NCBI RefSeq assembly: GCF_003330725.1
Contig: NZ_CP030840.1
Coordinates: 2,232,001 to 2,296,000, forward strand
Length of the DNA: 64,000 nucleotides
DNA from: Acidisarcina polymorpha
Lineage (GTDB): Bacteria > Acidobacteriota > Terriglobia > Terriglobales > Acidobacteriaceae
Reading direction: 5' to 3'
Part shown: piece by piece, positions 42,164 to 44,177 of the stretch
Layout of the letters: each line of letters opens with the position of its first letter
Numbering within the stretch: position 1 is the first letter of the stretch
Translations under genes and position numbers: made by a program
The notes under the pieces: generated by a model
What the model was told of the DNA's origin: nothing
Databases searched by the model: none
The model's input: only the letters and a program-made list of their open reading frames with translations

Positions 42164-42604
42164 TCAGTGCGGCTTGAACGTCTTTCCTGTTTCGATCAGG
42201 GTTTTGAGGCGGGAGAGGATACGTGGCCAGCCGTCCGCCGAGGAGGCATAGGCGTCATCATCCTCCGCCCACTGGTCATGCGTCACCGAGACCCGGGTGG
42301 CTTCAGTCTCTGGGACGAGTTCTACGGTGACGCGAGAGATTTTGCTCGAAGAGCCAAGAGCAAAAGTGTACTGCAACCGCTTTGGCGGCTCAGACTGAAG
42401 CACCTCACCGCGGACATAAGTGACTCGCTTGCCGTCCGCCCCCGGGCCCACCCAGTTCATCGAGCCGCCCGGCTTCAAATCGACTTCGAGCTCGGCCCCC
42501 ATAAAGAGGATCCGGTTAGATTCAGCAGAGACGAAGCCCTCCCAGACCCTCTCCGGAGGTGCGGCGATGTAAAAGACGAAATGCAGCGGAGTTTTCTCGG
42601 CCAT
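42164..42604 (-). CDS. SRPBCC / AHSA1-type protein
   Basis: A 146-aa START-like protein. It has the AHSA1 pattern: YIAAPPERVWEGFVS near the start, LKPGGSMNWVG in the middle and WPRILSRLKTLIETG at the end, forming a hydrophobic cavity in this family. Function is unknown: it may bind a small lipid or polyketide or act as an Hsp90 co-factor-like protein. GGAGGAGAG sets the start at 42604. Confidence 0.78.
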   Translation of the reverse strand: MAEKTPLHFVFYIAAPPERVWEGFVSAESNRILFMGAELEVDLKPGGSMNWVGPGADGKRVTYVRGEVLQSEPPKRLQYTFALGSSSKISRVTVELVPETEATRVSVTHDQWAEDDDAYASSADGWPRILSRLKTLIETGKTFKPH

Positions 42605-42741
42605 CTGCTCTCCTCCAGGTTGGTAGTCGGCTTGCAATCAGAGCCAACATACTCACCCCTTTATTATTTGGTCAAGCATCCTGCGGCCCGCATTTGCGAC
42701 GCTGGGATCCCAGGTTTGTTCCCCATCAGGACTCCGAACCT

Positions 42742-43065
42742 CTAAGAATGTGTGCTCCCGCCTGCCACCGCTCCAATGATCAGAAACGGCTCCTTGCCCG
42801 ATACGACCGCATCCGGCAGCCCAGCGTCGGGAGAAGCAAAGGACAGGTCTTCTTCACACGCAAAGAACCGCAAGAAAGGCCGCCGCTGCAAGGTCACATG
42901 GTCACGGATCGTCCCTCGCAGCATGGGGTAGCGCGATTCCAGGGCATCGAGAATGGATCGTTGCGTAACCTCCCCGTGGACCTCGACGGCCACTTCCGCA
43001 TTCACTTTGGCCAGCGTTCGCAAGTGAGCGGGCAGCTCAACCCGTACCGTTGTTGAAGATTTCAC
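42742..43065 (-). CDS. MoaD/ThiS-like beta-grasp protein with masked C-terminal Gly-Gly
   Basis: A 107-aa ubiquitin-like (beta-grasp) protein of the MoaD/ThiS superfamily, starting with GTG at 43065 and coupled by GTGA overlap to the BNR-repeat gene. Family features are [15 protein letters not shown], the [14 protein letters not shown] helix, and the end [14 protein letters not shown]. In sulfur-carrier and protein-modifier members the C-terminal Gly-Gly must be free. Here Gly102-Gly103 is followed by STHS. It would need processing, or it is not a carrier. No adenylating enzyme or JAMM protease is encoded nearby. Confidence 0.72.
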
Positions 43066-44177
43066 GCCAGCGTCTGCACCTCGACGGAAAGCACCGCCGG
43101 AAGGTCCCGCACGATCGGAGCCCAGCTGTCCCCCGCATTCGACGAGGCATAGACCTGTCCGCCCGTCGTGCCGAAGTACACGCCACACGAATCGAGTGAA
43201 TCCACCGCCATCGCATCACGCAGCACGTTGACATAGCAGTCGCTCTGCGGCAACCCATTCGTCAGCGGCTCCCATTCATGGCCGCCCGAGCGGCTACGAT
43301 AGACGCGCAGCTTGCCGTCAGGCACGTAATGTTCCGAGTCGCTCTTGATCGGGACCACGTAAATCGTCTCCGGCTCATGCGCGTGCACATCGATGGCAAA
43401 GCCGAAATCCGTTGGCAGATTGCCGCTCACTTCCTGCCACGAATCCCCCGCATCATCGCTCCGCATCACATCCCAATGCTTCTGCATAAAGAGCACTCCA
43501 GGCCGTTGCGGGTGCATCGCAATGTGGTGAACGCAGTGGCCCACCTCCGCCACGGGGTCGGGGATATGCAGCGAACGCAATCCGCGATTGATCGGCTTCC
43601 ACGTCTGGCCTCCGTCGTCGGAACGAAAGGCGCCCGCTGCCGAAATGGCAATAAAGATCCGCTGCGGATCGCTCGGATCGAGAAGGATGGTGTGCAGACA
43701 CATCCCGCCGGCTCCCGGCATCCAGCCCGGGCCTGAACCATGGCCGCGAAGCCCCGACAATTCGATCCAGGTTGCTCCTCCATCGGTCGATTTAAAGAGT
43801 GCGGCGTCTTCGACCCCCGCAAAGACGGTGTCGGGGTCGTTCAACGATGGCTCCAGATGCCACACCCGCTTGAATTCCCACGGGTGCGGCGTCCCGTCAT
43901 ACCATTGATGCGTTCCCGGAACTCCGTCATAAGTGAACTGGTTCCCGACTGGATTCCACGTCGCCCCGCCGTCGTCAGAGCGCTGGATGACCTGCCCAAA
44001 CCAGCCGCTCGACTGTGAGGCATAAAGCCGATTGGGATCCGCTGGCGATCCCTTCAGATGATAGATGTCCCATCCCGCAAAGTGCGGTCCACTCACTTCC
44101 CACTTATCCCGCTTGCCATCGGAATTAAGGACAAACGCACCCTTGTGGGTTCCTACCAGCACCCGTACCTTGCTCAT
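43062..44177 (-). CDS. BNR/sialidase-like repeat protein
   Basis: A 371-aa beta-propeller protein without a signal peptide. Asp-box-type repeats recur: [54 protein letters not shown]. These resemble exo-alpha-sialidase and photosystem II assembly-like proteins, but no sialidase catalytic Arg triad is evident, so sialidase activity is doubtful. Its stop overlaps the start of the MoaD/ThiS-like gene (GTGA), indicating coupled translation. The start at ATG 44177 has AAGGAGAG before it. Confidence 0.78.

Follow-up and report, generated by a model that had tools for sequence, protein, structure and literature searches.

An overlapping gene pair encoding an Asp-box propeller and a ubiquitin-like protein with a conserved Gly-Gly: a candidate sulfur carrier and its partner in acidobacteria

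The window, i.e. the whole stretch of 64,000 nucleotides of Acidisarcina polymorpha analyzed here (G000:C1:2232001-2296000), contains two overlapping genes on the reverse strand. The first (43062..44177) encodes a 371-aa Asp-box β-propeller, which has a seven-bladed fold by homology to the solved structure 3b7f and no visible signal stretch. The second (42742..43065) has a GTG start and encodes a ubiquitin-like (UbL) protein of 107 aa that resembles MoaD, SAMP1, and CysO, and ends with Gly-Gly (GG) followed by the four residues STHS. The STHS codons are found 3' of the Gly-Gly at 42745..42756 (reverse strand) and precede the stop TAG at 42742-42744. The pair of a propeller and a MoaD/ThiS-like gene with its GTG over the propeller stop, as described in the initial annotation, is confirmed. 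The propeller TGA and the UbL GTG share the 4 nt GTGA (43062..43065, reverse strand), which suggests translational coupling. For the pair, dN/dS values are 0.04-0.17 in the comparisons with eight relatives that were computable (14 of 16), although these ratios are rough because dS exceeds 1 in all comparisons. An AHSA1-type protein is encoded 119 bp downstream of the UbL (window 42164-42622, reverse strand), and no RNA family reaches its gathering score in the window. A reading as a defense system was rejected, PADLOC returning nothing for the propeller or the UbL. No description of the propeller-UbL pair was found in the literature searched.

Homology between the propeller and 3b7f (Reut_B4987 of Ralstonia eutropha JMP134) extends over 363 residues (E 4.7e-69), a whole-length match, and the model of a relative's propeller matches the same structure in Foldseek (E 1.3e-33). 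With this homology and its five Asp boxes, the window protein has the features of a 3b7f-type Asp-box propeller and belongs to the same family as Reut_B4987, whose structure was solved alone. The 3b7f row of a table in PMC2716378 gives 7 and 5, taken here as blades and Asp boxes, and lists the function as "Not known." Fold similarity of the relative's model was also detected to YCF48, DAIP, and the Vps10 domain, which are Asp-box propellers binding proteins or peptides. These belong to other families, however, and fold likeness to them is no sign of function. In public records, relatives of the propeller are automatically named "exo-alpha-sialidase." A hallmark of GH33 sialidases is the RIP motif with the catalytic Arg. 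In agreement with the earlier remark that obvious sialidase residues are lacking, the propeller contains no [FY]R[IL]P or R[IL]P motif. In addition, its first 50 aa lack a strongly hydrophobic stretch, and its match to Pfam BNR_3 falls below the cut-off. A sialidase identity was ruled out on these three grounds. The missing motif and the missing hydrophobic N-terminal stretch indicate that the propeller is probably cytoplasmic rather than a sialidase. In an alignment of 11 distant propellers, invariant residues include W106, H162, H217, Q232, H234, F260, and R320. Five of these (W106, H162, H217, F260, and R320) occupy equivalent positions in successive repeats, which would fit a central funnel.

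The UbL was modeled using AlphaFold2 (pLDDT 80.9, pTM 0.74), with residues 101-107, corresponding to the GG and the tail, scoring below 50. The nearest fold is SAMP1 of Haloferax volcanii (Z 12.9, rmsd 1.6, 88 aligned residues), along with the MoaD-related 1v8c from Thermus (Z 11.7, rmsd 1.7, 84 aligned) and CysO (Z 11.1, rmsd 2.0, 87 aligned; Z 10.9-11.1 for the proteins of M. tuberculosis and Amycolatopsis). Foldseek returns the same nearest UbL folds. At the sequence level, the window UbL scores 14.2 bits against Pfam ThiS (cut-off 22.5) and 17.9 bits against NCBIfam SAMP1 (curated cut-off 60), both below threshold. Among 59 UbLs of the family at E 0.01, ThiS matches 3 and SAMP1 weakly matches 21. 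Searching PDB sequences with the UbL or its profile returned nothing below E 0.1, whereas profile comparison with an acidobacterial CysO-type UbL gave 92.6 percent probability, with an alignment ending in a common AGG. The UbL belongs to the MoaD/SAMP1/CysO fold family, within which it is divergent, in support of its earlier assignment as a β-grasp, MoaD/ThiS-like protein. It shares the AGG end (followed here by STHS) and the availability of a MoeZ-type E1 with the CysO system, in which CysO acts with MoeZ, CysM, or BexX. On the other hand, its partner is a propeller, its locus contains no JAMM or cysteine synthase, and its family is barely recognized by Pfam ThiS. Similarly, although relatives of the UbL have the C-terminal GG of SAMP1, the UbL is bacterial and paired with a propeller, and a role as a conjugated tag is only putative.

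Co-inheritance of the two genes was assessed in 150 genomes of the family (including the one under study), counting UbL matches with E 1e-10 or better and close propellers at ≥70 percent identity. The UbL is present in 111 genomes and a close propeller in 108. Both occur together in 108 genomes, the UbL alone in 3, the close propeller alone in 0, and neither in 39 (Fisher p 7e-33, with kinship not corrected for). The pairing is far beyond chance, in support of the propeller being a dedicated partner, as had been proposed. In two of the three genomes with only the UbL (G065, G090, and G136), the match is near a contig start (G065 and G136). In another genome (G027), the UbL is ∼55 kb from the propeller, and both genes are kept though unlinked. 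Overlap of start and stop is seen in 68 of 76 named relatives. When neighbors were clustered at 80 named loci in search of a third constant gene, only the pair was widely recurrent. Among 135 nearest neighbors of relatives' pairs scanned (of 210 selected from mechanical ORF calls), there are 13 matches to 3-dmu-9_3-mt, 10 to glyoxalase, 7 to DoxX_2, 5 each to YCII and HxlR, and 3 to ThiF. The read-through propeller-UbL chain of one relative was folded (pLDDT 77.3, pTM 0.70), a result that says nothing on contact.

How general is the Gly-Gly, and how general is the tail masking it? GG is the very end of the protein in 93 of 101 UbL homologues from the same bacterial family (100 loci) and is followed by 1 to 42 residues in the other 8; none lacks it. 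This set is part of the 111 strong-match genomes and comprises only matches reaching query residue 95, omitting two loci without a row (L055 and L122) and two duplicates (L125 and L126). The 80 named loci from GTDB genomes rank highest among at least 590 and are hence a window-like sample. The UbL is present in 76 of them, with 72 proteins ending at GG, 4 with tails, and none without GG; the two sets overlap in assemblies, and their counts are not additive. At three of the four named loci without a UbL the contigs stop 14 to 186 bases past the propeller, and at the fourth (L197) no UbL was found within 6 kb. The Gly-Gly of homologous pairs is thus conserved and overwhelmingly terminal, an exception being a UbL of Nonomuraea that adjoins its propeller and ends with LPALA, and the carrier or modifier function put forward in the initial annotation is rated likely.

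The tails are a different matter. Those found are dissimilar (STHS, QGP, C, C, SL, D, I, G, and CD, plus longer ones). Two propeller-linked UbLs (L133 and L091) have tails of 14 and 42 residues after GG, for which stop loss is likely. Considering that the tails are sporadic and have no common sequence, STHS in the window appears to be a derived, local extension. The masked GG is, by this comparison, a local trait of the window lineage; loss of a single base after GGCGGG would be one guess at its origin. QbsE exemplifies a type of precursor in which the GG is masked. In the UbL family, tails present in only 8 of 101 and 4 of 76 proteins, and mutually unrelated, are not kept across homologues as in a QbsE-like precursor, and the earlier suggestion that masking is a feature of the system finds no support. 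In the window UbL, the tail would have to be trimmed by a protease, unless the gene is impaired or the sequence contains an error.

There is no E1 and no JAMM in the window: the genome has four ThiF-family matches (E 0.01) and three Prok-JAB matches (E 1), and every one of them is elsewhere. The statement that neither enzyme is nearby is therefore correct for the window and, for E1, incorrect for some relatives (see below), and the genome search proposed at the time does find both enzymes outside the window. One cluster (L114:4278-7285; G000:C1:1714277-1717284) encodes a cysteine synthase, a JAMM, a UbL ending with AGGK, and an E1-rhodanese (C1:1716166). A CysM plus JAMM operon is thus found in this genome with another UbL, and not at the window UbL. 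A table in PMC1779556 lists operons with a cysteine synthase/JAMM/UbL/E1 make-up in Solibacter and others. Both domains of the E1 are covered by matches to MoeB/MoeZ models, and a UbaA model also matches, below its cut-off. At another locus of the same genome (L115:5071-6742, reverse strand; G000:C1 about 1048070-1049741), a threonine synthase gene overlaps one for a UbL with a 28-residue Cys-rich tail after AGG.

In 20 JAMM or E1 regions of relatives, a JAMM-linked UbL was found in 12, and all 12 have residues beyond GG: 10 have variable tails (1 to ∼12 residues), 1 is fused to an E1, and 1 to a cupin-like domain. The same UbL-AGG-linker-E1 fusion occurs in five further genomes, chosen for long open frames. 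A tail after GG thus appears to be the rule for UbLs with a JAMM nearby, and by analogy the JAMM of the other cluster might trim the STHS of the window UbL. The in-frame fusions (L226, L233, L234, L235, L236, and L237 in G100, G039, G137, G113, G031, and G052) join a CysO-type UbL via SIAGG and a linker to an E1-rhodanese, which buries the GG inside one polypeptide, from which the UbL could be freed by a protease such as JAMM. In the cupin-like case (L222; G061:C64:22572-28600, from 2602 on), seen by eye, a CysO-type UbL is likewise joined via SIAGG. Elsewhere (L238; G012:C55:20000-22800), a JAMM-like protease and an E1-rhodanese are in one open frame.

In at least 5 of the 111 UbL-bearing genomes (G021, G030, G010, G095, and G032), spanning four genera (g11, g22, g31, and g33), the propeller-linked UbL is followed on its own strand by an E1-rhodanese gene, with places compared by eye and flanks searched over 1.5 to 4 kb. 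These E1 are 69-74 percent identical to that of the genome under study. In four of the five there is no ORF between the two genes (the E1 is 30 bp past the UbL in G021), and a 127-aa ORF intervenes in G032. About 0.2 such adjacencies would be expected by chance, as estimated from 111 genomes, two E1 genes, 4 kb, and 4.5 Mb. Moreover, a CysO-type UbL is missing in all five of these genomes (E 1e-8) vs 20 of the 106 others (E 1e-25), with Fisher p 4e-4 (four genera, kinship not corrected for). At two further loci, E1 pieces in two frames plus a JAMM-like frame are convergent after the UbL (L154), and an E1 is upstream and divergent (L208). It is adjacency that counts as evidence, and not presence alone, because E1 is found in 145 of 150 family genomes, i.e. 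in 109 of 111 with the UbL and likewise in 36 of the 39 that lack it; it is present in all 16 tested named genomes carrying the pair. E1 could also be kept for MoaD alone. In mycobacteria, MoeZR thiocarboxylates both MoaD and CysO (PMC3227635), which implies that one E1 may serve several UbLs.

The association is not confined to the window's subfamily. In seven family genomes, the sole propeller is a distant one (40-49 percent identical), and the window UbL has no strong match. We examined these loci together with four from genomes that also hold a close pair. Of these 11 distant propellers, 7 (3 from the first group and all 4 from the second) are followed by a different, more CysO-like UbL. 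In six cases the spacing is ≤3 nt or the genes overlap, and in the seventh the aligned start is 70 nt away. All seven UbLs contain PAVSGG, where four end, two carry tails (RL, and 13 residues), and one continues. In the last (L249; G004:C20:127392-133453, 3685 on), AVSGG of this second-type UbL runs into a ∼115-residue domain, FMN-binding PPOX-like by eye. No UbL match was found in the stretch examined at the other four loci (G003, G019, G060, and G124). A GG-bearing UbL at 7 of 11 distant propellers indicates a link older than the window's subfamily, yet not a universal one.

Propeller matches are also present in 25 records of a plasmid collection. In 10 of these, from β- and γ-proteobacteria (H7-H16, 29-34 percent identity), the UbL is directly upstream, which is the reverse order, and the two that were read, from P. 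aeruginosa and C. metallidurans, end with QALSGG. The UbL is downstream in an Arthrobacter record, bringing UbL matches to 11 of 25 propellers, and in the Nonomuraea record, where it was found by eye. No UbL matched in the remaining 13 records, which include all nine of the weakest propeller matches (24-30 percent identity) as well as those from Streptomyces, Fuscovulum, Marivivens, and Rhodobacter. The Streptomyces propeller was among those scanned, and no UbL gene is annotated within 4 kb of the propeller in Fuscovulum or Marivivens. The scan used an acidobacterial model, supplemented by other queries, ORFs ending near GG, and frames inspected by eye; negatives from the model are weak, given that the UbLs known at L128 and L132 also escaped it. 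The UbL-less matches may be other propellers, or their distant UbLs may have been missed by the query. The titles of the 80 named loci are from many phyla, at a propeller identity of 78-86 percent, and this identity suggests gene transfer between phyla. Most are metagenome bins, in which binning may err; Hyphomicrobium facile DSM 1565 (L181) and Pseudonocardia acidicola (L195) are isolates.

What, then, might the pair do? Considering what is observed (homology, fold model, conservation, co-inheritance, gene overlap, and E1 adjacency), the best explanation, to which we give an even chance, is that the UbL is thiocarboxylated by an E1 and passes sulfur to or through the propeller. The UbL would probably be a sulfur carrier serving the propeller and, less likely, a protein tag. 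From the genomics, we infer that activation would involve a MoeZ/MoeB-like E1-rhodanese, which adenylates and then thiocarboxylates the C-terminal Gly. In the window strain, trimming of STHS would come first, with the JAMM encoded at C1:1715321 as a plausible protease. The UbL would then dock on the propeller, its tail delivering sulfur at the site of W106, H162, H217, Q232, H234, and R320, by analogy with the carrier-partner pairs MoaD-MoaE, ThiS-ThiG, CysO-CysM, and CysO-BexX. We infer that sulfur would be transferred to a substrate in this putative reaction, with the propeller as acceptor enzyme or scaffold and not as a sialidase. In favor of the sulfur-carrier reading are the bare GG, the co-occurrence, the overlap, the distant and reversed pairs, the E1 adjacency, the fold, and the MoeZR-CysO precedent. 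Against it are the Nonomuraea UbL without GG, the 4 of 11 distant loci without a UbL match, the 13 of 25 plasmid records in which no UbL matched, an E1 adjacency confined to four genera, and the blocked GG in the window.

Several of the same observations can be read otherwise. Were the UbL a SAMP1/Urm1-like tag conjugated to lysines, with the propeller as receptor, ligase-like adaptor, or main target, SAMP1 as closest solved fold, the weak SAMP1 matches in the family, and a JAMM protein in 107 of the 111 UbL-bearing genomes would all be in keeping. However, JAMM is also present in 33 of the 39 UbL-less genomes and belongs to another UbL's cluster, the SAMP1 score of the window UbL is far under the curated cut-off, and the 25 most frequent neighbor families (of 92, from the 135 of 210 selected ORFs scanned) include nothing E2-like, leaving conjugation rather unlikely in our view. 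Strict co-inheritance and gene overlap are also what would be seen if the UbL were a structural or regulatory subunit, or a folding partner, of the propeller, the GG being used by contact and not activated. Such a role would accommodate the Nonomuraea protein and the tolerated tails (8 of 101 and 4 of 76 in the overlapping sets, 3 of 7 distant pairs). On the other hand, >90 percent of close-family UbLs stop exactly at GG, and in five genomes the E1 is beside the UbL while no CysO-type UbL is present, so that a subunit is also a fairly unlikely answer.

The remaining two readings fare worse. STHS might be a built-in control, removed by a protease to gate activation of a masked-GG precursor. Two other UbLs of the genome are masked (AGGK in the CysM-JAMM-E1 cluster, and AGG plus 28 aa in the ThrC-linked protein), as are 12 of 12 readable JAMM-linked UbLs of relatives. 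Just 8 of 101 propeller-linked UbLs have tails, though, these are unrelated to one another, and JAMM is absent from the locus, and we consider this very improbable. That the propeller is a glycosidase (a sialidase or GH74-like), the UbL being incidental, is hardly credible: the automatic "exo-alpha-sialidase" names and the structural similarity of the relative's model to GH74 have to be set against the missing R[IL]P motif and signal stretch, the Pfam BNR_3 score under its cut-off, and a propeller inherited 108 to 0 with the UbL.

Sulfur transfer from the UbL to the propeller is directly testable because both proteins are small, a relative of the propeller has been solved, and a candidate E1 is known. 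The pair occurs across many phyla of soil bacteria and also, with the gene order reversed, in Burkholderia, Cupriavidus, and Pseudomonas. It may represent a new class of thiocarboxylate-dependent sulfur transfer, a possibility we hold tentatively and put somewhat short of an even chance, in which a cytoplasmic Asp-box propeller is the acceptor enzyme of a dedicated UbL carrier. Pairs of this class, two or more of them paralogous in acidobacteria and others in further phyla, would so far have been annotated as "sialidase" plus "MoaD." To our knowledge, the known partners of sulfur carriers are PLP, ThiG-type, or MoaE-type enzymes. If the proposal is true, the "exo-alpha-sialidase" annotation would be corrected, and the propeller would be a new kind of client for a SAMP1/CysO-like protein.
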